From contig NC_015172.1 in the NCBI RefSeq assembly GCF_000190635.1, positions 2,852,001-2,916,000 on the forward strand: a DNA stretch of 64,000 nucleotides, read 5' to 3'. The notes under the pieces were generated by a model. The model was not told the origin of the DNA and ran no database searches. It saw only the letters and a program-made list of their open reading frames with translations. Below are positions 4,137 to 63,673 of the stretch, one piece after another; within the stretch, counting starts at the first letter, position 1; each line of letters starts with the position of its first letter. The DNA is from Syntrophobotulus glycolicus DSM 8271 (GTDB lineage Bacteria; Bacillota; Desulfitobacteriia; Desulfitobacteriales; Syntrophobotulaceae). Both the position numbers and the translations under genes were made by a program.

Positions 4137-6011
4137 CTATTGGACTGCTCTTTCCAAAATGCTGTAGAGCCTGTTCACCATACCTCTGGGATCAACAATC
4201 AATCCTGCGGCAATCTGGGCAGTCTCCAAAATCTGGTCAGCGGCGACCGCTGCGAAGCTATCGTTCTTTTTACGCAATTCATTGAGACCTTTAATAATAG
4301 AATGCTTCGTATTCACTTCGAGGATTCCCGGAGCAGGTGCAGCGAATTCCTTATTCATCATCTGCATCATTCTCTGCATACTGTGCGTACTATAAGAACT
4401 GAGCAGAATTGCCGGACTGTCGGACAGCCTTTTGGATACTCTGACTTCTGTAACCTTGTTCCCCAATGCCTCTTTCAGCCATTCGCTCAAAGCAGCGGCT
4501 TCTTCTTCGGATAATCTGTCCGGACCGGCCGTCTCTGAGCCTTCATCAACCGAAGGCAGGTCAGAATGATCTTGTTCCGCTGCGATAACCGGCTTGCCTT
4601 CAAACTCGTTCAACCGGTCAAAAATATAATCATCGATTGGTTCATAGCAATATAAAACTTCGATTTCCTTACCTTTAAATGCTTCCAGATAAGGGCTTCC
4701 TTCTACTGTTTGCCTGTTCGGTCCGCTGACATAATAAATGCCCTTTTGATCATCTTTCATTTTGCCCACATAGTCAGCAAGTGAAATCAGTTCCCCAGGC
4801 TCCTGCAAGTTTGATTCGAAACGCAGCAGCTTAACCAGTCCGTCCTGATGGGTAAAATCTGTCGCCGCTCCTTCTTTGATAAACATCCCGAATTTTCCCC
4901 AAAATTCCTTATATGTTTCCGGATCTTCCTGAGCCTGTTCCTCCAGGAATCTCAGGAAACGACCGGTTACCACTTTATTTAATTTGGCGATAAGTGCGCT
5001 GTCCTGCAATGTTTCCCTGGAAATATTGAGAGGCAATTCTTCACTGTCAATCACTCCGCGTACAAAGCGCATCCATTCAGGGGCAATATTCTCCGACTTC
5101 TCTTGAATAAGGACCTTCTTACAAAACAGGTTTAATCCTCTCTCCATTCTGCTGATCCCATACCGTTCGAAATTTTCTCCCGGTACAAAGAGCAGGGCAT
5201 GGAGAGCTAATGGGGCATCCGAAGAAAAATGCAGAGTATATGCCGGTTCATCATAGGCATTGGCGAGGAATTTATAAAATTCCGCATATTCTTCAGGGTT
5301 GATTTCTTTTTTATTCTTCATCCAGAGCGCTTCAACCGTATTGACTTTTTCCCCGTCAACCAGGATAGGATAAGGCACGAAGCTGGAATACTGTTTAATG
5401 ATTTTTTTGATCTTTTCAGCCTTTCCGAATTCAAAAGCGCTCTCTTTCAATTCCAGGGTTATGCTTGTCCCTCTCTGTTTTTCCTCTGTTTCTTCCAGTG
5501 TATATGTTCCGCTGCCGTCGGACGACCAGCTCCAGCTTGGCTCATCGGGCTGATATGACCTCGTCTTCAGAACAACCTTATCAGCCACCATAAATGCGGC
5601 ATAGAATCCTACGCCGAACTGTCCGATCAGGTTGAGGTCAGATCCTTCTTCTGAATTTTTATCAGGCTGCTTGTTCTGGAGCAAATGCTGGATAAATTGT
5701 TTGGAGCCTGAATGGGCAATCGTTCCTAAATTTTCGATCAGTTCATCTTTGGTCATACCCACCCCATTATCCGTAATGGTTAAGGTGTGGGCCTGATCAT
5801 TCACTTCAATCCCGATTTCCAAATTTAAATCAGGGCCGGCAATCTGCTCGCCTGTAAGCTGTAAATATCTCAATTTTCCACTGGCATCAGCCGCATTGGA
5901 GATCAATTCACGTAAAAAAATTTCCTTATCGGTATAGAGTGAGTTAATGACAATATCCAATAATTGTCTGATTTCTGTCTGAAACTCTCTTGTCTCCGTC
6001 TGCCTGTTCAT
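4137..6011 (-). CDS. htpG: Chaperone HtpG (bacterial Hsp90)
   Basis: The 624-residue protein is full length for HtpG. The N-terminal Bergerat ATP-binding fold is intact: ELISNAADA near residue 36, DNGVGM near 80 and GQFGVGFYAAF near 123. The middle domain holds FVRGVIDSEELPLNISRE with the catalytic-loop arginine, and the C-terminal dimerisation region ends in LNRLYSILE-type helices. It is an ATP-dependent cytosolic chaperone. GGGAGG lies 10 nt before the ATG. It stands alone between MTH1187 and an HD-GYP gene on the same strand. Confidence 0.97.
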   Translation of the reverse strand: MNRQTETREFQTEIRQLLDIVINSLYTDKEIFLRELISNAADASGKLRYLQLTGEQIAGPDLNLEIGIEVNDQAHTLTITDNGVGMTKDELIENLGTIAHSGSKQFIQHLLQNKQPDKNSEEGSDLNLIGQFGVGFYAAFMVADKVVLKTRSYQPDEPSWSWSSDGSGTYTLEETEEKQRGTSITLELKESAFEFGKAEKIKKIIKQYSSFVPYPILVDGEKVNTVEALWMKNKKEINPEEYAEFYKFLANAYDEPAYTLHFSSDAPLALHALLFVPGENFERYGISRMERGLNLFCKKVLIQEKSENIAPEWMRFVRGVIDSEELPLNISRETLQDSALIAKLNKVVTGRFLRFLEEQAQEDPETYKEFWGKFGMFIKEGAATDFTHQDGLVKLLRFESNLQEPGELISLADYVGKMKDDQKGIYYVSGPNRQTVEGSPYLEAFKGKEIEVLYCYEPIDDYIFDRLNEFEGKPVIAAEQDHSDLPSVDEGSETAGPDRLSEEEAAALSEWLKEALGNKVTEVRVSKRLSDSPAILLSSYSTHSMQRMMQMMNKEFAAPAPGILEVNTKHSIIKGLNELRKKNDSFAAVAADQILETAQIAAGLIVDPRGMVNRLYSILERAVQ

Positions 6012-10168: not shown

Positions 10169-10197
10169 TTGACAAAAGGTATAACATACTGTATATT
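10169..10197 (+). promoter_or_regulatory. Sigma-A type promoter of the ABC transporter island
   Basis: TTGACA (10169-10174), a 17-bp spacer and TATATT (10192-10197). Predicted start near 10204, about 420 nt before the first recognisable gene, leaving a long leader. Confidence 0.75.
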
Positions 10198-10254
10198 GAA
10201 TCCATATAAAACCTATGATAATAGGGGAGTAAGAAGAGAGAACGTTATTGTTTG

Positions 10255-10308
10255 TTGACCAGATGTCTGGAGGCCACGCAACCTGATGAGGGTTGTTGGC
10301 CTCCTTTT
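10255..10308 (+). promoter_or_regulatory. Leader unit 1: palindromic box fused to an intrinsic terminator
   Basis: The 18-nt box TTGACCAGATGTCTGGAG (10255-10272) contains the palindrome CCAGA-TG-TCTGG. Its last bases begin a terminator stem: GGAGGCC (10269-10275) pairs with GGCCTCC (10298-10304), an inner CAACC/GGTTG helix extends it, and TTTT follows. A hairpin formed by CCAG and CTGG would compete with the base of the terminator, as in antitermination leaders. I cannot assign it to a named riboswitch or protein-binding class. Confidence 0.55.
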
Positions 10309-10357
10309 ATGCTTTACTGGCTGTGCTTATCACCATTGGAACCTAAAAAAATACGAA

Positions 10358-10418
10358 TTGACCAGAGATCTGGAGATCATATTATTTCTTAAAGAATATA
10401 TGGTCTTGTTTTTTTTAG
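10358..10418 (+). promoter_or_regulatory. Leader unit 2: repeat of the same box with a second terminator
   Basis: TTGACCAGAGATCTGGAG (10358-10375) matches unit 1 at 16 of 18 positions; the two box centres are 103 bp apart. The end of the box again starts a stem: AGATCATAT (10374-10382) pairs with ATATGGTCT (10398-10406), followed by TGTTTTTTTT. The sequences between boxes differ, so only the box and the box-terminator arrangement are conserved. Confidence 0.55.
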
Positions 10419-10627
10419 GGAAACCATTTAAGAGGTGATGCTGGAGAAAGAGAGCCGCTTAACGACAATGACGGTGTCTTTTCTGAAACGATCAAAAGAC
10501 ATCGTAGATCACAGAGGGGAGGTATTCAAACGGTCTGAGAAAAAAATTTATCACAATCAACGGTATCACAGCAAGGAGCTACGGAAGGCATTGGGTTTCC
10601 AAGATTTAAGATTGAAGGGAGTAATTC

Positions 10628-11398
10628 ATGAAAGAAATCATAACGGGAGTTCATAACAAGCTTTTAAGTTTCTATTTATTTTTTCTGGTTTTAATTTTGT
10701 GGGAGATCGTACCGCGGTTAGGCTGGACCAGCGATGTCTTTCTACCTCCGTTTTCCCGGATTATACAGACAGGGATAGATTTGGGCTTATTCAATGTCCT
10801 GATTTATGTTGCGATTAGCTTAAAGAGAGTATTTGTAGGCTTTTTACTAGGTACCTTTCTGTCTCTGCCTCTTGGCTTTATTTTAGCGGGGGCATTGCCC
10901 TGGCTGTCCAGATTTCTCAGGCCTCTGACAGTTTTTCTGTCCAGCATCCCGCCGTTTATCCTGTTCCCGATTTTTGTCATCATTTCTGGAATTGGCGAAG
11001 GCGGCATTTATACAGTCATTTTCTGGTCGTCCTTCTGGCCTATCCTGTTTACGACAATTGTGGGTATAGAAAATGTGGATCCTCTGCTTGTGCGAGCCGC
11101 CAAGTCCATGAATGCCAGTAAGCTACAGATATTTTACAAAGTCGTGCTGCCCGGCGCCTCTCCTACCATCATTACAGGCGTTCGGACGGGTCTGACAATG
11201 AGTTTCTTTATGCTGATCGGCGCTGAGAGCATGGGGGCTGATTCCGGATTAGGCTGGGTCATTCATAATGCCCAAAACATGGGATTCGTGGAACGCATCT
11301 ACTTGGGTGCGATATTGGTTGCCGGTGTCGGTCTCCTCCTGAATTATGCACTTGAATATTTGGAGAAAACCGTTCTCTATTGGCGGGAAGCTCCGTGA
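10628..11398 (+). CDS. ABC transporter permease, TauC/SsuC (nitrate/sulfonate/taurine) family, copy 1
   Basis: 256 residues with about six membrane helices and the BPD_transp_1 coupling loop region (residues ~155-185, VRAAKSMNASKLQIFYKVVLPGASPTI, given here only in part as SMNASKLQIFYKVVLPG). AAGGGAG lies 6 nt before the ATG. It is first of six collinear transporter genes. The motif pattern matches the hydrophobic subunit of importers for sulfonates, nitrate, thiamine precursors and similar small molecules; the substrate cannot be read. A short reading frame (10435-10656) overlaps its 5' end and is probably not a gene. Confidence 0.88.
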   Translation: MKEIITGVHNKLLSFYLFFLVLILWEIVPRLGWTSDVFLPPFSRIIQTGIDLGLFNVLIYVAISLKRVFVGFLLGTFLSLPLGFILAGALPWLSRFLRPLTVFLSSIPPFILFPIFVIISGIGEGGIYTVIFWSSFWPILFTTIVGIENVDPLLVRAAKSMNASKLQIFYKVVLPGASPTIITGVRTGLTMSFFMLIGAESMGADSGLGWVIHNAQNMGFVERIYLGAILVAGVGLLLNYALEYLEKTVLYWREAP

Positions 11399-11468
11399 GG
11401 AAGAGAAGGCACTGCCGCCTGAAAATCAGGGCAAGTCTAAAATTACACAGGGGGAGGTTATCCGTTAA

Positions 11469-12245
11469 ATGAAACCTTTGACACCTAACCTGAAAAAGCT
11501 GATCCTGGGCATTATACCGATTCTTTTGTTCTTAATTTTTTGGGAGATCGGAGCGGGAATAATCCCCGAAGGAGTTATTTCCCCTGCCTCCGACGCTATA
11601 GCAGCCGTGTTCGAATCGGCGGCTTCCGGATTGTTGTGGACACAGACATTAATTAGTTTGGAACGGGTTATCCTGGGATTTCTTCTTTCTTTGCTGCTTG
11701 GTGTCCCGCTCGGTTTTTTGCTGGGAACTTTTTTCAAATCAACCGAGAAAGTCCTGCTGCCTTTTATGCGAGCATGTGAAAAATTAAATCCCTTTGCGAT
11801 TATTCCTATTTTTATGATCTTTTTTGGAATCGGTACCGCTGAAAAAGTGGTCGTCATATTTTGGTCGACATTGTGGCCCGTTCTTTTCAATACGATGGCC
11901 GGAGCGCGCAATATTGACCAAAATTTGTTAAGGATGGTTCGTTCTATGGGGGCAACCCGCTGGGAATTGTTAAGGAAGGTAATCTTTCCGTACACATTGC
12001 CCAATATCTTTATCGGAATTGAGTTTGCGGCCCAAGTTGCTTTCTTCATGATTATCGCTTCGGAGGTTATTGGGGCCAGCACAGGGCTTGGCTGGTACTA
12101 TACCAGTTCCGCTACCAAATACGATCTTCCCTTAATGTACGGTATCGTTCTCTATATTACCGTACTGGGAATTGGGGTCAATGTTATTTTCGCCCGGCTG
12201 AAAAAACATTTCCTGGTCTGGAAACAGGCTTCGGAACTCAACTAG
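11469..12245 (+). CDS. ABC transporter permease, TauC/SsuC family, copy 2
   Basis: 258 residues, same architecture as copy 1: an N-terminal helix with FWEIGAGIIPEG, then helices and the coupling-loop motif RSMGATRWELLRKVIFPYTLPN near residues 157-178 (conserved core SMGATRWELLRKVIFP). It follows copy 1 after 70 bp with its own GGGGGAGG site. Two different permeases in tandem could form a heterodimeric channel. No ATP-binding gene lies between or beside them. Confidence 0.88.
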   Translation: MKPLTPNLKKLILGIIPILLFLIFWEIGAGIIPEGVISPASDAIAAVFESAASGLLWTQTLISLERVILGFLLSLLLGVPLGFLLGTFFKSTEKVLLPFMRACEKLNPFAIIPIFMIFFGIGTAEKVVVIFWSTLWPVLFNTMAGARNIDQNLLRMVRSMGATRWELLRKVIFPYTLPNIFIGIEFAAQVAFFMIIASEVIGASTGLGWYYTSSATKYDLPLMYGIVLYITVLGIGVNVIFARLKKHFLVWKQASELN

Positions 12246-12304
12246 GCCTCATGAGCAGCAGGCCTGGAGCTGCCGGGTTAAACAAAAAAGAAGGGGTAAA
12301 AAAT

Positions 12305-13405
12305 ATGACCGGTGAAAATCAAAAAAAGAAATTTATTATTATTGGGGTCGTAGCAGCAATTCTTGTGGCAGGAATCGGAGTTGGAAGCTATTTTGGGCAA
12401 ACGAAGAAGGGAATCACAACCGGAACTGAAATTCAGGGCGCGGCAGGTTTAAAGGATTTAAAAAGTGAAGGTTATGATCCGGCCGCTTCCGGCAAGGAAG
12501 TTCTTACGATTAAGACCGATACCAAGAAAAACTGCTCGTCCACACCCTGGGTCATTGCCGAGAAAAAAGGTTTTTTTGCCGAGGAAGGCTTGAATCTTGA
12601 ATATACAGGGGAATTGACCATACCCCAACAATTACCGGCCGTGTTAAACGGCACCAATAATGTTACAACAGCGCATATCAATGCTGTGGCTACCTATATC
12701 GCCGGCGGAGCCAAGATCAAAGGGGTTACTATAGGGGGCGTTGATCCGACCCCTGATGTGGATCCCAAATACCGGCATATGCGTTTTTATGCCAATCCCA
12801 AACTGGGTGTCACTACGCTGGCGGAATTGATCAAACTGAAAAACGGCCAGCCGATTAAGATCAACGGTACGGAGCCTAATTGTACGACCTTTATCGCGGA
12901 CAATGCTTTTGATCATTCAGGCTTTAACCGGGATCAGATTCAATATGTGGTCTTTGACACGGATACGGCGGCTCTGCAGGCTGCTCAGCAGGGCAATATC
13001 GATATTGTCGGCGTGCATCCTCCCTTCTACAAACTGGCTGCCGATTCTAAGCTACCGCAGATCTTTGACACGGCCGACACCGGCCTGGGGGAAGCCGCGG
13101 GCACTACGGTTTATTACTTTACCGAACAATTTATTGCGGAAAACCCGGAGGCCATAGCCCGCTTCGTCAGAGCGATCAAGAAAGCTCACCAGTATATCGC
13201 CAACCCGGAACATGAAGAAGAAGCCATTAAATTGACCGGAGATTATATCGGGCAGCCAGTCAACGCCGTTCACTATTACTATACCGGCAAAGGCTTCAGA
13301 GACGAACTGCTTCAGCCCTGGATTGACGATCTTGTCAGAAACGGTTTTCTGAAAAAAGATCAGCTGACTGTAGATGATTTGATTACAAGAGAGTTTGACA
13401 ACTAG
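12305..13405 (+). CDS. ABC transporter substrate-binding protein, NMT1/SsuA-like, copy 1
   Basis: 366 residues from the ATG at 12305, which has GGGG 8 nt upstream; a frame open from 12251 has no site. Residues ~8-27 form an uncleaved-looking hydrophobic anchor (FIIIGVVAAILVAGIGVG) with no lipobox cysteine. The mature part is a NMT1/SsuA periplasmic-binding fold: STPWVIAEKKGFFAEEGL, then VLNGTNNVTTAHINAVATYI and DIVGVHPPFYKLA. Residue pattern NGTEPNCT near 200 is a candidate ligand loop. Together with copy 2 it presumably feeds the four flanking permeases; ligand unknown. Confidence 0.88.
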   Translation: MTGENQKKKFIIIGVVAAILVAGIGVGSYFGQTKKGITTGTEIQGAAGLKDLKSEGYDPAASGKEVLTIKTDTKKNCSSTPWVIAEKKGFFAEEGLNLEYTGELTIPQQLPAVLNGTNNVTTAHINAVATYIAGGAKIKGVTIGGVDPTPDVDPKYRHMRFYANPKLGVTTLAELIKLKNGQPIKINGTEPNCTTFIADNAFDHSGFNRDQIQYVVFDTDTAALQAAQQGNIDIVGVHPPFYKLAADSKLPQIFDTADTGLGEAAGTTVYYFTEQFIAENPEAIARFVRAIKKAHQYIANPEHEEEAIKLTGDYIGQPVNAVHYYYTGKGFRDELLQPWIDDLVRNGFLKKDQLTVDDLITREFDN

Positions 13406-13434
13406 ATCAGGACAAAGTGAGGAGGTAAAAAGAG

Positions 13435-14541
13435 ATGGCCAGCGGAATTCAAAAAAAGAAATTTATTATTATTGGGGTCGTAGCAGTAATTCTTGTGGCA
13501 GGGATCGGGGTTGGAAGCTATTTGGGGCAAACGAAGAAGGGGATCACAACTGGAACTGAGATCCAAGGCGCGGCAGGTTTAAAGGATTTAAAAAGTGAAG
13601 GTTATGATCCGGCCACTTCCGGCAAGGAAGTGATTACGCTAAAGACGGATACCAAGAAAAATTGTGGTTCCACACCCTGGGTCATTGCTGAGAAGAAAGG
13701 GTTCTTTGCAGAGGAAGGGTTAAATATTGAATATACAGGCGAACTGACTATACCTCAACGCTTGCCCGCCGTGTTAAATGGAACAAACGATATTGGAGGG
13801 GCGCATATCAACGCACTCGCTACCTATATCGCCGGTGGAGCAAAGATCAAGGGGGTCACTTTAGGCGACGTTGATCCTGATCCCAATTCAGATGTGGATC
13901 CCAAATACCGTCATATGCGTTTTTATGCCAATCCCAAACTGGGTGTCACTACGCTGGCGGAATTGATCAAACTGAAAAACGGCCAGCCGATTAAGATTAA
14001 CGGTACGGAGCCTAATTGTACGACCTTTATCGCGGATAATGCTTTTGATCATTTAGGCTTTAACCGGGATCAGATTCAATATGTGGTCTTTGACACAGAT
14101 ACGGCGGCTCTGCAAGCTGCCCAGCAGGGCAATATCGATATTGTCGGCGTGCATCCTCCCTTCTACAAGCTGGCTGCGGATTCCAAACTGCCGCAAATCT
14201 TCGACACAGCCGACACTGGTCTGGGGGCTGCAGCGGGAAGTCTGGCTTATTACTTTAGAGAAGATTTCATTAAAGAAAACCCAGAGGGAGTGGCCCGCTT
14301 CGTCAGAGCGATCAAGAAAGCGCAGGCCTGGAGCGTAAAACCGGAAAATGCAGAGGAAGCAATTCGATTGACTGCGGATTATATCGGGCAGCCGGTCAAT
14401 GCCGTCCACTATTACTATTCCGGCAAAGGCTTTCCGGATGAACTGATTCAACCCTGGATTGACGATCTTGAAAGAAACGGTTTTCTGAAAAAAGGGCAGC
14501 TGACTGTAAATGATCTGATTACAAAGGAGTTTGACAACTAG
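13435..14541 (+). CDS. ABC transporter substrate-binding protein, NMT1/SsuA-like, copy 2
   Basis: 368 residues and a clear paralogue of the preceding gene, 29 bp downstream with GAGGAGG before the ATG. The N-terminal anchor and the central third are almost identical to copy 1 at the DNA level, while residues ~95-140 and the C-terminal ~100 residues differ (for instance ANPEHEEEAIKL against KPENAEEAIRL), and a small insertion (DPNS for TP) sits before the central block. This is a tandem duplication, with the diverged parts around the putative binding cleft, so the two proteins may bind related but different ligands. Confidence 0.88.
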   Translation: MASGIQKKKFIIIGVVAVILVAGIGVGSYLGQTKKGITTGTEIQGAAGLKDLKSEGYDPATSGKEVITLKTDTKKNCGSTPWVIAEKKGFFAEEGLNIEYTGELTIPQRLPAVLNGTNDIGGAHINALATYIAGGAKIKGVTLGDVDPDPNSDVDPKYRHMRFYANPKLGVTTLAELIKLKNGQPIKINGTEPNCTTFIADNAFDHLGFNRDQIQYVVFDTDTAALQAAQQGNIDIVGVHPPFYKLAADSKLPQIFDTADTGLGAAAGSLAYYFREDFIKENPEGVARFVRAIKKAQAWSVKPENAEEAIRLTADYIGQPVNAVHYYYSGKGFPDELIQPWIDDLERNGFLKKGQLTVNDLITKEFDN

Positions 14542-14651
14542 ATCAGAACCAATCCGACAGTACGTCCGGGGAACGAACGTCATCGTTCTCCAGACACTGT
14601 CTCTATACTGCCGTGCTTGCGGGCCAGGATGAGAGGAGGCGGGATAAACCC

Positions 14652-15737
14652 GTGAAATTAAAAGAATATCCGGTCATTTTTCGAATGATGTTGCGTTTGT
14701 CTGGCATTTTTCTTGTGGCGGTGCTTTGGGAGCTGCTCCCGCGCATAGGAATTGTAAACCATACCTTTTTGCCTCCCTTGTCTGTGGTATTGCAAGAGGT
14801 GGCGCATCTGATTCTGACTCAGCACTTGTTAGGTCATGTCCTCGCTACTTTATGGCGGCTGATGGTGGGGATTGTCCTGGCTGTTTTGCTGGCCGTTCCG
14901 CTGGGAGCGGTCCTTGGCTATTGGCTGCCCGGGGCAGCGGTTGCCCTGAATCCCCTTTTTCGGATTTTGGGACAAATTAACCCCTTTTCCCTGATGACTG
15001 TCTTCTTCCTGTTTTTGGGGGTGGGAGAGAAAGCCAAATTGGTTGTCGTTACTTGGGTTGCCTTTTGGCCTTTGATCCACCATACGATTACGGGCATCCA
15101 GACGGTTGAGCCTGATTTGATCAAAGCCGCCAGAAGCATGGGGATGTCCAGGGGGCGTTTATTTCTAAATGTGCTGCTCCCGGGAACCGTCCCGGCGATC
15201 CTGCTTGGAATACGTTCTTCCGCCGTCCTGCTGCTGGCCATCCTGGTGGCGGGCGAAATGCTGGGAGGATTGGCAGGGCTTGGCTGGCTTCTGCATTGGG
15301 CAGGCAGTTACTATGTATATCCTTATGCAACCGCGCCTATATTCGCCGTGGGTTTGTGCATCTCCCTGGTCGGCGTGGGCCTGGGCGTATCCCTCCGTCA
15401 AATAGAGAAGGGACTGCTTTTCTGGAAACCCTCCGCTTCTATATGGAATGGAAAAGCGCCGGATAAAGGGAAAGTACGCGTTCCGAGCCGCGGTTTTCCT
15501 GTAGCCGTGGCGGCAGCAATGCTCGGGATTTTTCTGATAGGAAGCGTAGAGATTAGCCGGCTGCGTCACTTGAACAACAGTTTTGCCGGGGAAGAAGATA
15601 TTCCGGCAATAACCGACCACAGCGAGCATATGCAGCAGGAAGACGCAGAAAGAAAATCCGGCAGCGATTCCGGAAGTGATCATGAGAAACATTCTGTCCA
15701 TCAAAATCATTCCGGTCACTCCCCTAAAACAGATTGA
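14652..15737 (+). CDS. ABC transporter permease, TauC/SsuC family, with extra helix and His-rich tail
   Basis: 361 residues from a GTG at 14652 (AGAGGAGG 12 nt upstream); a GTG at 14613 has no site. Residues ~1-265 are a normal permease with the SMGMSRGRLFLNVLLPG coupling motif. Unlike its siblings it continues for about 95 residues: an additional membrane helix (VAVAAAMLGIFLIGSV) and then a hydrophilic tail rich in His, Asp and Ser, with HSEHM and HEKHSVHQNHSGHS. Such tails commonly bind divalent metals. This is the only hint to the island's cargo and points to a metal or metal complex, but that is inference. Confidence 0.85.
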   Translation: MKLKEYPVIFRMMLRLSGIFLVAVLWELLPRIGIVNHTFLPPLSVVLQEVAHLILTQHLLGHVLATLWRLMVGIVLAVLLAVPLGAVLGYWLPGAAVALNPLFRILGQINPFSLMTVFFLFLGVGEKAKLVVVTWVAFWPLIHHTITGIQTVEPDLIKAARSMGMSRGRLFLNVLLPGTVPAILLGIRSSAVLLLAILVAGEMLGGLAGLGWLLHWAGSYYVYPYATAPIFAVGLCISLVGVGLGVSLRQIEKGLLFWKPSASIWNGKAPDKGKVRVPSRGFPVAVAAAMLGIFLIGSVEISRLRHLNNSFAGEEDIPAITDHSEHMQQEDAERKSGSDSGSDHEKHSVHQNHSGHSPKTD

Positions 15738-15763
15738 TCCGTACCGGACAAGGAGGGAAATCA

Positions 15764-16516
15764 ATGAGTGTAGGCATCTCTTTAGCTAAACGATATGGTT
15801 CCGTACTAGCCTTTCTGGCTGTTTGGGAGCTCAGCTGCCGGCTGGGCTGGGTTGACGCGCAATTTATCCCCGCTTTTTCCCAGGTAGTGATATTCATTGG
15901 AGGCCAGATTGCGGAAGGACAGTTATTTACACATTTGGGAATCAGTCTGGGGCGTGCTGTCACAGGGTTTATCATTGCCGTACTTGTCTCCATACCCCTA
16001 GGTGTGCTATTGGCAGGCTGGTCGGAGCAGGTACGCCTGGCCGTTGAACCTGTAACGGAATGGCTGGCCTATATTAACCCGTTTGTTGTCTTCCACATTA
16101 TTATTGTATTCATGGGGGCAGGGGAAGCGACCAAGGTAACCATTATCGCCTGGGCCTGCATCTGGCCCATTATGTTCAGCACCTTATCCGGCATCCTTCA
16201 TGCCGACCAGGATATTGTAAAGTCTGCGCGCTCCCTGGGCTTAAGCCGTTTTCAACTGACTATAAAGGTGCTGCTTCCTTACGCTTTCCCTGCCATTTTG
16301 ACAGGAATACGCCTTTCTCTGGGCTACGCTCTTCTATTCCTGATCGCCGCTGAAATGATGGGGGCAAGCTCCGGACTTGGCTGGATGATCTACCGGGCAC
16401 AACGCAATTATCAAATTGTAGAAATGTTTTCTGCTGTAACCGTTATTGCCGCCCTGGCCGTAAGCATAGACGGAATCATATCCTCCATCGGCAAACGCTT
16501 ATCTTACCGGCTGTAA
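15764..16516 (+). CDS. ABC transporter permease, TauC/SsuC family, copy 4
   Basis: 250 residues from the ATG at 15764, which has AAGGAGGG 6 nt upstream. The coupling motif SLGLSRFQLTIKVLLPYAFP lies near residues 160-180. It ends the transporter island; a spacer and the typA promoter follow. Again no ATPase gene is adjacent, so the complex must borrow an ATP-binding subunit encoded elsewhere. Confidence 0.87.
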   Translation: MSVGISLAKRYGSVLAFLAVWELSCRLGWVDAQFIPAFSQVVIFIGGQIAEGQLFTHLGISLGRAVTGFIIAVLVSIPLGVLLAGWSEQVRLAVEPVTEWLAYINPFVVFHIIIVFMGAGEATKVTIIAWACIWPIMFSTLSGILHADQDIVKSARSLGLSRFQLTIKVLLPYAFPAILTGIRLSLGYALLFLIAAEMMGASSGLGWMIYRAQRNYQIVEMFSAVTVIAALAVSIDGIISSIGKRLSYRL

Positions 16517-19230: not shown

Positions 19231-19680
19231 TTATATACAGTAATTGTCAACATGAATACTCCGTACCTTCTCTTCTTCCTCCATCAAATCCCTGAGAGAA
19301 TAGGAGTCCAGAACTTTTGTGATTGATTGTTTGAGATCCTCCCAAACTATTTTTGTCACACAGTAATTCGAACGGCTGCATTGTTCGGTATCATCATCGT
19401 TAACACAGTCTACCGGCGCTATGGGGCCTTCCAATGCCCTGATGACATCCCCTACCGAAATCTCCCGGGGCTCCTTATTGAGCAGATACCCCCCCTGAAA
19501 ACCCCGTATGCTTTTAATCAGACCTCTCTGCTTCATGACGATTAATAATTGTTCCAAATATCGTTCGGATATTTCCTGCCTTTTGGCAATACTATTGATG
19601 GTCACCGGACCTTCCTTCTCATTTAAGGCCACATCAAGAATAGCTCTGAGACCATATCTTCCTTTTGTAGAAATTTTCAT
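19231..19680 (-). CDS. Rrf2 family transcriptional regulator, IscR/CymR-like
   Basis: 149 residues from the ATG at 19680 (MKISTKGRYGLRAI); a GTG at 19692 would add four residues. The winged-helix motif with ISERYLEQLL matches Rrf2. Three cysteines at ~residues 95-110 (spaced 9 and 6) resemble those ligating an Fe-S cluster in IscR, so it may sense Fe-S or sulfur status. It lies just downstream of the nif operon terminator, not obviously part of that operon. Candidate targets in the window include metY and the nitrogenase operons, but no site was identified. Confidence 0.85.
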   Translation of the reverse strand: MKISTKGRYGLRAILDVALNEKEGPVTINSIAKRQEISERYLEQLLIVMKQRGLIKSIRGFQGGYLLNKEPREISVGDVIRALEGPIAPVDCVNDDDTEQCSRSNYCVTKIVWEDLKQSITKVLDSYSLRDLMEEEEKVRSIHVDNYCI

Positions 19681-19878
19681 AATCGGTTTCACTTCTTTCT
19701 GACTTTATTTTAAACCTGTTTTTAATCTTTATCTAACCGCATTTCATCTATTTTAAACTATCCGGCCAGTAAATTTTTATATTGTTTTGGATTGATGCTG
19801 CCCATATCGATACACATTATAACATAGCCCATAATAATAATATATCCTAATTTATATGTATTTACTAGACATTAATAC

Positions 19879-19916
19879 AAATTTATGCCGCTCTTTCACT
19901 TGAGCGGCATAAATTT
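19879..19916. terminator. Strong stem-loop at the end of the nif operon
   Basis: AAATTTATGCCGCT and AGCGGCATAAATTT form a perfect 14-bp stem with a 10-nt loop, 41 bp past the nifV stop. T-rich sequence is clearest on the + side; on the - strand the stem itself ends in ATTT. Confidence 0.65.
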
Positions 19917-19956
19917 TCTCTTTTTTATCGTCCTTTAAACCTGAGGAAAACAGGCC

Positions 19957-21111
19957 CTATCTTTCTCTTTTATCGTTGAGCAGTTCATTAAATTCTTCAT
20001 CGGTAACGATACTCTTCTCATCCGCATAACGCAGAAACAGATGATAAATATTTTCAATTTCTTTACGGTCATAGCTATGGCCTAATTTTTGCAGCTTATA
20101 TCTGACCGCACTTCTTCCTGATCTGGCATTCAAGACAATTTTGCTCTCCGGAGCTCCAATGATGCCGGGATCAAATAATTGATAAGTCTGCGCCTCTTTA
20201 ATCATTCCGTCCTGATGAATTCCCGCTGCGTGCCAAAAGGCGTTTGAACCCACAACAGGCTTATACCTTGAGATGGGAACACCTGTTATCATCGAAATAA
20301 GTTTGCTTGTCTTAAATATTTCCTTCATATTAATACTGACATCAATGGAATACAATTCTTTTTGGACATAGAGGGCCATAATGACTTCTTCCAGGGAAGC
20401 ATTCCCTGCCCTTTCACCGATACCGGTTATTGTCCCTTCAATCTGATCAGCTCCGGCCAGGATGCCGGCCAAGGAATTGGCCGTCGCCATTCCCAGATCA
20501 TTATGACAATGAATACTCAGTTTAGCCCGATCTATATTAATGACTGTGTTTTTGAGCCTGGCCACCAACTCCCCCAATTGCCAGGGCGTTGCAATCCCGA
20601 CTGTATCTGAAATCGTAACTGTTGTCGCACCCGCATTAATTACCTGTTCCAGGATCTTAACCAGAAAGTCAAATTCACTGCGCAAAGCGTCTTCGGCATA
20701 AAATTGCACCTCTCCAATGGATTTCCTGGCATATTTTACGGACTGAACAGCTTTGTCCATAGCCTGCGCGGACGTCAGTTTTAACTTTTTTTCCATATGG
20801 ATGGGGGAGACAGCCAGGCCGAGATTAATGCGGGGATTCTCGGCCCCGGACAAGGCCCTGACGCAGCAATCGATATCTTCCTGTACACACCTGGACAACC
20901 CGCAGATTGAAACCCCTTTGACCTCTTCGCTGATTTTTTGCACGGCGGCGAAATCTCCGGGAGAAGAAGCGGGGAATCCGGCTTCGATCACATTAACCCC
21001 CAGTTTGGCAATACGCTTGGCCAGCTCTAATTTCTGACAGGCATTGAGCGTTTTTTCCAGAGATTGTTCTCCGTCCCTTAACGTTGTATCAAATATATCC
21101 AGCTTGCGCAA
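19957..21111 (-). CDS. nifV: Homocitrate synthase NifV
   Basis: 384 residues, DRE-TIM metallolyase family: DTTLRDGEQ near residue 9, HCHNDLGMA with the metal-binding His pair near 200 and GERAGNASLEEV near 227. It condenses acetyl-CoA and 2-oxoglutarate to homocitrate, the organic ligand of FeMo-co and FeFe-co. The start is a TTG preceded by GGGGGGG at 6 nt. As last gene of the Mo operon it must serve both nitrogenases, since no second copy is in the window. Leucine-pathway 2-isopropylmalate synthase is the main alternative, but length and context favour NifV. Confidence 0.93.
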   Translation of the reverse strand: MRKLDIFDTTLRDGEQSLEKTLNACQKLELAKRIAKLGVNVIEAGFPASSPGDFAAVQKISEEVKGVSICGLSRCVQEDIDCCVRALSGAENPRINLGLAVSPIHMEKKLKLTSAQAMDKAVQSVKYARKSIGEVQFYAEDALRSEFDFLVKILEQVINAGATTVTISDTVGIATPWQLGELVARLKNTVINIDRAKLSIHCHNDLGMATANSLAGILAGADQIEGTITGIGERAGNASLEEVIMALYVQKELYSIDVSINMKEIFKTSKLISMITGVPISRYKPVVGSNAFWHAAGIHQDGMIKEAQTYQLFDPGIIGAPESKIVLNARSGRSAVRYKLQKLGHSYDRKEIENIYHLFLRYADEKSIVTDEEFNELLNDKRER

Positions 21112-21141
21112 ATTAATCCCCCCCGATAAAGGTTCCCGGCT

Positions 21142-21816
21142 TTACGATCCATGGGCCTGTTCTTTCGAAATCATTACTTTTACTTTGTTTGCTTCCAGCT
21201 CAGAAACTTTAAGCATCAGACTATTTAGGGTTGCCTCACCTTCCAGCCATTTAGGCAGATGGTTGCAGACCATTTCTATTGAATTAAACTTTCCCCTGCG
21301 GATAAAAGGCAAAAGCACCTGTTTTGTTGTCACCTGGGTACTGCTCTCCTGAATTTCTTTAAGAAAAATACTGTAGTTTCCCGGAGTTATTTCCACAAAA
21401 CAAGGCTTTTGAATATCCTTTGATTTCATATTATCCTTGTTTTTTGAGATATCTGCCTTAGGCGTCGCCTGTTTTTGCAGGTAAGACTCTTCCTCTTTTT
21501 GCAGAATATAATCAAGAAACTCAAAAGGTTTCCCTTCCCATTCCCAGATACTACATTTGGCCTTATCCAAAATAAAATAGGGGATACCGCTTATTGCAAA
21601 CCCTACAAACACCTTGCAATCACCCAGAAAATCCAATAATTCCTCCATTTTCAGGCGGAAATCTATCATTCCGTGGATTTGTTTCAGGGTGAATTCTTTC
21701 TCCCGGGCAATGTGCCATTTTCCTCTCTTTCTGACAAAAACAACGATTTTCCCACGGTCTGTTAATTTGGTCGTGTTCCCTTCTCTATCGACAAATACTG
21801 CAATTTCAGCGGGCAT
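21142..21816 (-). CDS. anfO: Fe-only nitrogenase accessory protein AnfO
   Basis: 224 residues from the ATG at 21816, 8 nt after GGGGAGG; an ATG at 21840 would overlap that site. The N-terminus AEIAVFVDREGNTT and the layout (N-terminal ~100-residue domain, charged linker of ~40 residues, C-terminal domain beginning CFVEITPGNYS) match the AnfO family, known from Fe-only nitrogenase clusters. Its biochemical role is not established; it supports Fe-only nitrogenase function. Notably it sits inside the Mo-nitrogenase operon between nifB and nifV rather than next to anfHDGK. Confidence 0.8.
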   Translation of the reverse strand: MPAEIAVFVDREGNTTKLTDRGKIVVFVRKRGKWHIAREKEFTLKQIHGMIDFRLKMEELLDFLGDCKVFVGFAISGIPYFILDKAKCSIWEWEGKPFEFLDYILQKEEESYLQKQATPKADISKNKDNMKSKDIQKPCFVEITPGNYSIFLKEIQESSTQVTTKQVLLPFIRRGKFNSIEMVCNHLPKWLEGEATLNSLMLKVSELEANKVKVMISKEQAHGS

Positions 21817-21858
21817 CGAGCAAACCTCCCCTCCAGTCATTTTTTGAAGCCTCCTTCT

Positions 21859-22758
21859 TTATCCGGCTTCTCTCTTACAGCTGCATTTCTTTCTTCCTTC
21901 AATAAATTCTTCCGAACAATCTTTCCCGAGCATTCCGATGGCATCGGCCCTGCATTGCTTGCAATGGGTCATCTGCCTCATATTCTCACCACATTTTTTT
22001 CTGGTTTCCGTAATTCTCTGCATACTTGTAGGCGGATGATCCTCAAACACACTGCCTTGTACCGGAATCAAAGGCATGATATTGCTTGTAAAAGCGCCAA
22101 GCTCCTTCATCTCATGAATGATTTCCGGAATGTGGTCATCATTGATGCCTTCCATCATCACAGTGTTTATTTTAACCAATACACCCTTTTCGGTTAAAAG
22201 CTTAATTCCCTGAAGCTGGTTGTCAATGAGTATTTTTGCCCCTGCACTACCACTGTAGGTTTTCCCCTGATAACTGACATTCTTATAAATCAGGGCCCCA
22301 ATTCGAGGATCAATACAATTGACTGTAACTGTTACATGATCAATTCCAAACTCTCTCATTTCATCAACATGATCAGGCAATACAAGTCCATTTGTCGATA
22401 AACAAAAAGTAATGTTCTCATCTTCTTCTCTGATCAGCTTTAAGGTCTTTTGAGTCTCGCTCCAGTTGGCCAGAGCATCACCCGGGCCGGCAATCCCTAC
22501 AACGGACAGATTTCCTAATCTTTCCCTGACCAGACAAAACCTTTCCAGTGCTTTTTCCGGTGTTAAGATTTCACTGGTCACACCCGGTCTGCTTTCATTG
22601 ACGCAGTCAAATTTTCTGTTGCAGTAATTACAGCTGATATTACATTTTGGCGCCACAGGCAGGTGCAATCTGGCATATTTATGATGAGCCTCATAGGAAT
22701 AGCAGGGATGTTTCGCTGTTTTTTCCTCCATGGACAGGTTCAGCTGTTTTGTTGTCAT
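21859..22758 (-). CDS. nifB: Nitrogenase cofactor biosynthesis radical SAM protein NifB (short form)
   Basis: 299 residues from the ATG at 22758 with AGGTGG just upstream. The radical SAM cluster motif lies in CNISCNYCNRKFDC, preceded by the NifB-specific HPCYSYEAHHKYAR, and a C-terminal CKQCRADAIG carries further cluster ligands. NifB fuses two 4Fe-4S clusters with an SAM-derived carbide to NifB-co, the precursor of all nitrogenase cofactors. The C-terminal NifX-like domain of proteobacterial NifB is absent, as usual in Firmicutes and archaea; a separate NifX is encoded upstream. Confidence 0.96.
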   Translation of the reverse strand: MTTKQLNLSMEEKTAKHPCYSYEAHHKYARLHLPVAPKCNISCNYCNRKFDCVNESRPGVTSEILTPEKALERFCLVRERLGNLSVVGIAGPGDALANWSETQKTLKLIREEDENITFCLSTNGLVLPDHVDEMREFGIDHVTVTVNCIDPRIGALIYKNVSYQGKTYSGSAGAKILIDNQLQGIKLLTEKGVLVKINTVMMEGINDDHIPEIIHEMKELGAFTSNIMPLIPVQGSVFEDHPPTSMQRITETRKKCGENMRQMTHCKQCRADAIGMLGKDCSEEFIEGRKKCSCKREAG

Positions 22759-22808
22759 TTTTTCCACCTACCTTTTTATTTATTGAATTATTCTTTGCCG
22801 GGCTGTCT

Positions 22809-63344: not shown

Positions 63345-63673
63345 TAAAAAACGCCTATCCTCGGATAATCCAAGGACAGACGTTATATCTGCGGTGCCAC
63401 CTTGATTGACTTCGTGTTCCCTTCCTCTCTGGATAATAGTAAAAAACCAGACCTCGGAAGATCACAAGCCCAACTCATAGCAGGATGCCAACACATCCCC
63501 CGTCTTCTAACGCCAACGCCGCGTCGGGTATTACTCAGGGCATATCTTGCCGCTTTCCCCCCGCCTTCAGGAGCCCATTTGCCAGTCCGTTTCCTGCTGC
63601 GCTCCCACCGCCCGCAGCTCTCTTTGAGGACGTATACTGACGTTACTTCTCCATCAGAAGTTTAACTGTATTT
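63345..63673 (-). promoter_or_regulatory. T-box riboswitch specific for tRNA-Trp
   Basis: The T-box core AAGGTGGCACCGC (63391-63403) is followed by a terminator: arms at 63352-63382 form a ~13-bp stem with GU pairs and TTTTTT after it. The specifier loop holds TGG (63575-63577) in the context AAATGGGCTCCTGAA, and upstream AGAGAG and GGTGGGA match stem I. Uncharged tRNA-Trp would bind and permit read-through into trpE. Confidence 0.93.

Follow-up and report, generated by a model that had tools for sequence, protein, structure and literature searches.

A hairpin-terminator leader element, present twice before an ABC operon of Syntrophobotulus glycolicus, recurs before predicted sulfur genes of Bacillota

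Introduction

RAT sites, the targets of BglG, SacY and LicT, are hairpins of about 29 nt with small asymmetric internal loops which overlap the 5' arm of a terminator, and binding of the factor leads to read-through. In the Guanidine-IV (mepA) riboswitch, a small leader element of the ON type is joined to a terminator. Methionine and sulfur genes of Bacillota are subject to transcription attenuation by the S-box (SAM-I, RF00162), which occurs in multiple copies. The BglG/SacY/LicT-type antiterminator family is treated in PMC9981650 and PMC3369936, and the Guanidine-IV riboswitch in PMC7736828. In clostridia, the cysteine-specific T-box (RF00230) governs cysK and cysteine transport through a terminator/antiterminator switch, as for cysK in C. 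perfringens (PMC2940859).

Here, we analysed a stretch of 64,000 nt from the S. glycolicus genome (genome positions 2852001-2916000, called the window; positions are counted from its first letter), in which a leader with two copies of a hairpin element, each followed by an intrinsic terminator, precedes a group of ABC transporter genes. Rfam 15 gave no match in the window at the gathering threshold, one chance match in the leader at E<=5, and only tRNAs and a chance microRNA match at seven related loci. This bears out the preliminary description of the locus, in which no counterpart could be named for the element among known riboswitches and RAT, ANTAR or T-box elements. Sequence and loop differ from the RAT consensus, and no Rfam match was obtained; moreover, the element stands before sulfur genes and RAT sites before sugar PTS genes, and it is found in about 20 leaders per genome, whereas a RAT stands singly beside its antiterminator gene. 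Like the S-box, the element would attenuate transcription of methionine and sulfur genes from multiple copies in Bacillota, but it has no sequence or structural match to RF00162 and is much smaller; terminator/antiterminator control of sulfur genes would likewise be shared with the cysteine T-box, but without any T-box match. The Guanidine-IV riboswitch differs in its downstream genes, and no Rfam riboswitch was matched at the element loci. Unlike the targets of ANTAR-dependent antitermination, i.e. two adjacent hairpins with conserved hexanucleotide loops, the element is a single hairpin with a loop of 4-5 nt. No paper describing it was found in a literature search whose scope excluded preprint servers and most subscription journals. 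We rate the element as a new RNA family that would work like the known terminator/antiterminator leaders.

Results

Two hairpin-terminator units in one leader

The leader begins with a sigma-A-type promoter (Table 1) and carries two near-identical boxes, TTGACCAGATGTCTGGAG at 10255-10272 and TTGACCAGAGATCTGGAG at 10358-10375, which agree at 16 of 18 positions and start 103 bp apart. Directly after each box follows a different intrinsic terminator, so that promoter, boxes and terminators are all present as claimed in the preliminary description. When the box pattern was searched in the window with up to 3 mismatches, only these two sites were found, both exact, where shuffled sequences led us to expect 0.48. 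The covariance model R1 scored copy 1 with 59.0 bits (E 1.9e-13) and copy 2 with 63.5 bits (E 1.1e-14), both copies being part of its training set, and its other matches in the 64-kb window were at chance level. A promoter of its own was looked for and not recognised upstream of copy 2, and hence both copies lie in one leader. Each copy folds into an inner helix P1 and an outer helix P0, the latter comprising three base pairs in either copy, of which two are G-U in copy 1. Terminator 1 overlaps copy 1, sharing with it the P0 3' strand and the last part of P1, and the minimum free energy of copy 1 together with its terminator is -27.3 kcal/mol.

The ABC island downstream (10628-16516) consists of four permease genes and two genes for near-duplicate substrate-binding proteins, with no ATPase gene among them; an SsuB-like ATPase gene that has a separate element copy lies at a distance of about 68 kb, around genome position 2794000. 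The ABC island is one of the operons in a predicted sulfur regulon with about 20 leaders. Further along the window, positions 19231-22767 hold genes for an Rrf2-family regulator, a homocitrate-synthase-like protein and a NifB-like radical SAM protein, and the R1 search found no element copy there.

Table 1. Features of the window leader and its operon, genes after further copies in S. glycolicus, and tandem copies.
Feature	Sequence	Position	Strand	Details
Sigma-A-type promoter of the leader	window	10169-10197	+	-35 TTGACA 10169-10174, 17-nt spacer, -10 TATATT 10192-10197; score 11/12
Putative antiterminator hairpin, copy 1	window	10254-10276	+	P0 G10254-C10274, U10255-G10273, U10256-G10272; GA/A internal loop
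P1 of copy 1	window	10259-10262 with 10267-10270	+	loop AUGU
Intrinsic terminator 1	window	10269-10308	+	arms 10269-10283 and 10290-10304, T4 10305-10308
Putative antiterminator hairpin, copy 2	window	10357-10379	+	P0 A10357-U10377, U10358-A10376, U10359-G10375
P1 of copy 2	window	10362-10365 with 10370-10373	+	loop AGAU
Intrinsic terminator 2	window	10374-10416	+	arms within 10374-10407, T8 run 10409-10416; overlaps the P0 3' strand of copy 2
ABC permease, SsuC-like (BPD_transp_1)	window	10628-11398	+	first gene of the controlled operon
Second ABC permease (BPD_transp_1)	window	11469-12245	+	
Substrate-binding protein, NMT1/SsuA-like	window	12251-13405	+	
Second substrate-binding protein	window	13435-14541	+	near-duplicate of the first
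Third ABC permease (BPD_transp_1)	window	14613-15737	+	
Fourth ABC permease (BPD_transp_1)	window	15734-16516	+	
Nitrogenase-like component 1 genes after copies	S. glycolicus genome	977195, 2771945, 2800413		
NifH-like gene after copy	S. glycolicus genome	2842692		
NifB-like gene after copy	S. glycolicus genome	2846702		followed by a MetNIQ-type transporter
SsuB/SsuC-type transporter genes after copies	S. glycolicus genome	1558018, 2793174, 2794192		and the window
Cystine-type ABC ATPase after copy	S. glycolicus genome	1110600		followed by gamma-glutamyltransferase
URO-D-type methyltransferase after copy	S. glycolicus genome	2822909		with corrinoid protein
Nitroreductase gene after copy	S. glycolicus genome	2764442		likely operon continuing towards cysK
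Tandem copies	window			two copies 103 nt apart
Tandem copies before metK	G228			two near-identical copies 105 nt apart
Tandem copies	L283			two divergent copies 106 nt apart
Tandem copies, similar ABC island	G041			two copies 254 nt apart
Tandem copies	G454			two copies 472 nt apart

A covarying hairpin that excludes the terminator

Across all copies the element is a hairpin of about 27 nt with the consensus NNGYUGACCRG-ANAA-CYGGAGRCYNN, in which P1 (4 bp) carries an A-rich loop and is separated from P0 by a small GA/A internal loop. The A-rich loop has 4 nt in 85 sequences, 5 nt in 53 and 6 nt in one. In the alignment of 133 distinct sequences, 98.5% of the P1 cells (columns 16-19 with 31-34) are paired, and two-sided changes occur at 4/4 pairs, the types encountered being CCAG/CUGG, CCGG/CCGG, CUGG/CCAG, UCAG/CUGA, CUAG/CUAG and CCAU/AUGG. 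One-strand wobbles keep P1 paired (UG in 14/133, GU in 12/133), and G-U pairs occur in P0 as well. In P0, which has two-sided changes at 5/5 pairs, the bases preceding UGA pair with the bases that follow AG; pairing per sequence reaches 99% at 7-37 (Y-R), 92% at 6-38 (mostly G-C or A-U) and 76% at 5-41, with lower values further out, as counted in an alignment that had been fitted to P1 and the terminator model and not to P0. An independent permutation test likewise singled out the P0 registers (z 6 to 10). Standard pairing of U9 with G25 holds in each of the 133 sequences that have both letters, which leaves the small GA/A internal loop with its near-invariant adenines (A11 and A24 are invariant or nearly so). 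Readings of this loop as a K-turn or as tandem G-A pairs, tried by hand, misfit the covarying C12-G23 pair. Beyond the promoter no conservation was found 5' of P0, and the recognised element therefore measures about 27 nt.

At the terminator base (columns 35-42), 98.1% of the cells are paired, with two-sided changes at 5/6 pairs. Covariation scores for the P0-P1 hairpin and for the terminator exceeded those of 500/500 shuffles, which ignore kinship, and those of every slid control. The claim that only the box and its geometry are conserved thus has to be given up: the terminator base (AGRYY...RRYCU) is conserved as well, and the base 5' of the box matters as part of P0. Hairpin and terminator both covary and, as in RAT sites, they are mutually exclusive, because R26, Y27 and Y28 pair in P0 and also in the terminator. 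Exclusion of the terminator base had been ascribed earlier to CCAG-N4-CUGG; the exclusion itself stands, but the competing structure is mainly the outer helix P0 around P1. Taken alone, the terminator is the more stable structure in 133/134 elements (median -21.2 versus -8.4 kcal/mol), and at least 4 U are found in 126/134. An upstream promoter scoring at least 10/12 was detected for 80/134 elements versus 10/134 shuffles, its -10 box usually ending 20-75 nt before the element.

Sporadic occurrence in Bacillota

A box search of the S. glycolicus genome returned further boxes with terminators directly after them, and covariance models were built from 9 sequences (R1) and then from 25 (R2). With the covariance model, 17 copies were found in S. 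glycolicus at E<=0.001, and there are about 20 leaders overall. An exact 18-mer scan of the genome contig collection gave mostly chance matches, in Pseudomonas and others; the matches with a T-run downstream were genuine only at four Bacillota loci (L025, L103, L118, L135), belonging to Clostridium, Syntrophomonas and two Cohnella, with 2 to 7 copies per genome. The element was present in 10/82 genomes of the class sample, three genomes of one family (f4) having 8-9 copies, and in 32/398 genomes and 29/266 genera of the evenly drawn phylum sample, where one genome (G172) had 11 copies. One weak match was obtained in a control set of 26 genomes searched with laxer filters. Since no copies were found in other sampled genomes of S. 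glycolicus's own family, the element is sporadic. The preliminary description had proposed a search for box and terminator in other genomes, and the pair was indeed found there, with a covariance model and a list of downstream genes as outcome.

At least 10 copies lie within about 100 kb of the S. glycolicus genome (2764442-2862415, with 10249-10415 as the part in the window), alongside many nitrogenase-like genes, which suggests an acquired organosulfur island. Matches in three genomes (G040, G049 and G037; L174-L176) were excluded because they have no P1 with a loop. At two of these loci (L174 in G040, L175 in G049) a leader of similar kind, TTGACCATGGAGGTC followed by a terminator, lacks a proper P1 loop; it precedes an FmdE-like gene at L174, and a gene for a metal-type substrate-binding protein lies downstream at both. 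These leaders may be relatives of the element or chance. At another locus (L289), divergent copies at 4683-4748 (+) and 4443-4511 (-), separated by about 170 bp, would drive transcription units in opposite directions, one of which begins with a small pyruvate-kinase C-terminal-domain-like protein.

Genes after the element

Downstream genes were evaluated by a Pfam tally of the first gene after each copy and by clustering of the neighbours by distinct genome, the cluster names being read from the sequences. By their predicted products the downstream genes are overwhelmingly genes of sulfur acquisition or of cysteine or methionine synthesis. In other genomes, copies are followed by cysK, sat, cysC, metY, metK (three genomes) and metN, by genes for sulfate- and cystine-binding proteins and by a putative alkanesulfonate monooxygenase gene; some of these names come from sequence reading, and the identities of cysK, sat and cysC were confirmed by curated models. 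The recurring neighbours, counted in distinct genomes, are SsuB-like ABC ATPases (22), SsuC (14), CysK (13), MetY/MetB (11) and SsuA (11), followed by NifDK-like proteins, NifH, NifB and URO-D methyltransferase (9 each), MetQ (6) and MetK (4). For much the same gene set, as it occurs in non-selenium type I MGC clusters, a role in methyl-sulfur metabolism or methionine salvage was proposed (PMC10418091), in the text of which no mention of a riboswitch or terminator was found.

Only one true S-box was found in S. glycolicus, before a MetY/MetB-type gene, so S-box and element coexist in this genome. Nine T-box matches were obtained; wherever the following gene was readable, it was an aromatic, leucine-type or tRNA-synthetase gene, and among these nine none was seen before sulfur genes. 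A T-box-like leader in the window (63369-63666, minus strand), which scored 72.9 bits and stayed below the Rfam gathering score, lies before an anthranilate synthase component I-like gene.

Tandem copies

The element had been taken for a duplicated antitermination element acting at the RNA level, and copies in series within one leader agree with this; two unrelated loci likewise have tandem copies at closely similar spacing, and two more have them at wider spacing (Table 1). Two attenuators in series should leak less and respond more steeply, and the sharp on/off response put forward earlier is a plausible consequence of two serial switches. Copies repeated at constant spacing are a natural example of such an arrangement.

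Discussion

The element is probably a RAT-like antiterminator in a transcription-attenuation leader, with read-through at sulfur shortage brought about by a trans-acting factor on P0-P1; this assessment is built on sequence comparison. RNA polymerase would start at 10169-10197 and transcribe the P0-P1 hairpin of about 27 nt. The P0 3' strand is at the same time the lower part of the 5' terminator arm that follows immediately. By default the more stable terminator would win and transcription would stop. At low supply of sulfur, cysteine or methionine the factor would bind and stabilise P0-P1, and with the terminator blocked the sulfur-acquisition genes would be transcribed. Sulfur shortage is the likely inducing condition because the genes acquire sulfur. 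We favour an RNA-binding protein, which would act as LicT does on a RAT site, because the conserved RNA is one small hairpin. At the SsuABC-type transporter operon, the two serial switches would demand two read-through events.

Such a protein factor would need to be present in all element-bearing genomes, and neighbour clustering revealed no universal gene near the elements. A BglG/LicT-type protein was rejected as the regulator in most genomes, as CAT_RBD (PF03123) is absent from 26/33 element-bearing genomes including S. glycolicus (G000), positive controls having been found.

We consider it possible, though somewhat unlikely, that P0-P1 is itself a very small ON riboswitch which binds a signal of sulfur shortage, e.g. 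O-acetylserine or another precursor, and prevents termination with no protein involved. The distribution of the element, which can have as many as 17 copies in a genome at scattered operons and is sporadically present across many families, resembles that of S-box regulons, no regulator gene is regularly linked to it, and the A-rich loop and invariant A11 and A24 are in keeping with an aptamer; yet the conserved part is one hairpin of about 27 nt with a 2x1 internal loop and nothing upstream, which is very small for a specific aptamer. SAM is disfavoured as the ligand, given that the S-box coexists with the element and that the recognised state would be the ON state. If this reading were true, the element would be among the smallest riboswitch classes and would provide global attenuation of sulfur assimilation and organosulfur scavenging in Bacillota, including nitrogenase-like Mar-type enzymes.

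The reverse polarity, i.e. an OFF switch in which the gene is expressed by default and a ligand or protein favours the terminator state, with P1 stacking on the terminator, appears improbable. Biosynthetic genes are often under OFF switches such as the S-box, the terminator base is itself conserved, and P1 and terminator can coexist. However, the covarying P0 and the conserved UGA are located outside the terminator, where only an antiterminator state gives them a role, and a terminator that is intrinsically the more stable structure in nearly all elements needs no help.

That DUF2325 (PF10087) proteins are the RNA-binding regulator we regard as very improbable. They occur in the element regions of 7 genomes by clustering, in six of them close to the element, and a subfamily scoring >100 bits is enriched in element-bearing genomes (8/32 versus 6/366 others). 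At this score, however, the subfamily is missing from 24/32 element-bearing genomes, including one with 8 copies (G078), and in the six genomes that have it and lack the element no copy was found even by a more sensitive search. DUF2325 is thus enriched and adjacent, yet neither necessary nor sufficient. The subfamily (VLIVGADRLG...HW.GR, about 90-110 aa) is found near the element at L292:5075-5404 (-), L294, L295, L296, L298 and L225, and its predicted fold has no significant relative in the PDB.

We give almost no credence to a DNA operator (CCAGA-NN-TCTGG) for a dimeric repressor with terminators adjacent by coincidence, the alternative raised in the preliminary description: the core is a perfect DNA palindrome in both window copies, but P1 keeps its RNA pairing through double changes and through G-U pairs which break the palindrome, the outer part lacks symmetry (UGA opposite AG), and the terminator is always on the same side, in fixed orientation to element and gene.

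Antitermination by a trans-acting factor remains the reading we prefer, and the element looks like a widespread sulfur-supply control system in Bacillota. Sulfur control in many anaerobic members of this phylum is poorly known, and the element is a readable sulfur-regulon tag in at least 29 sampled genera. It links nitrogenase-like Mar-type enzymes, NifB-like proteins, corrinoid methyltransferases and DUF2325 to sulfur supply, and points to a regulator in the metabolism of cysteine and methionine that is amenable to direct experiments.
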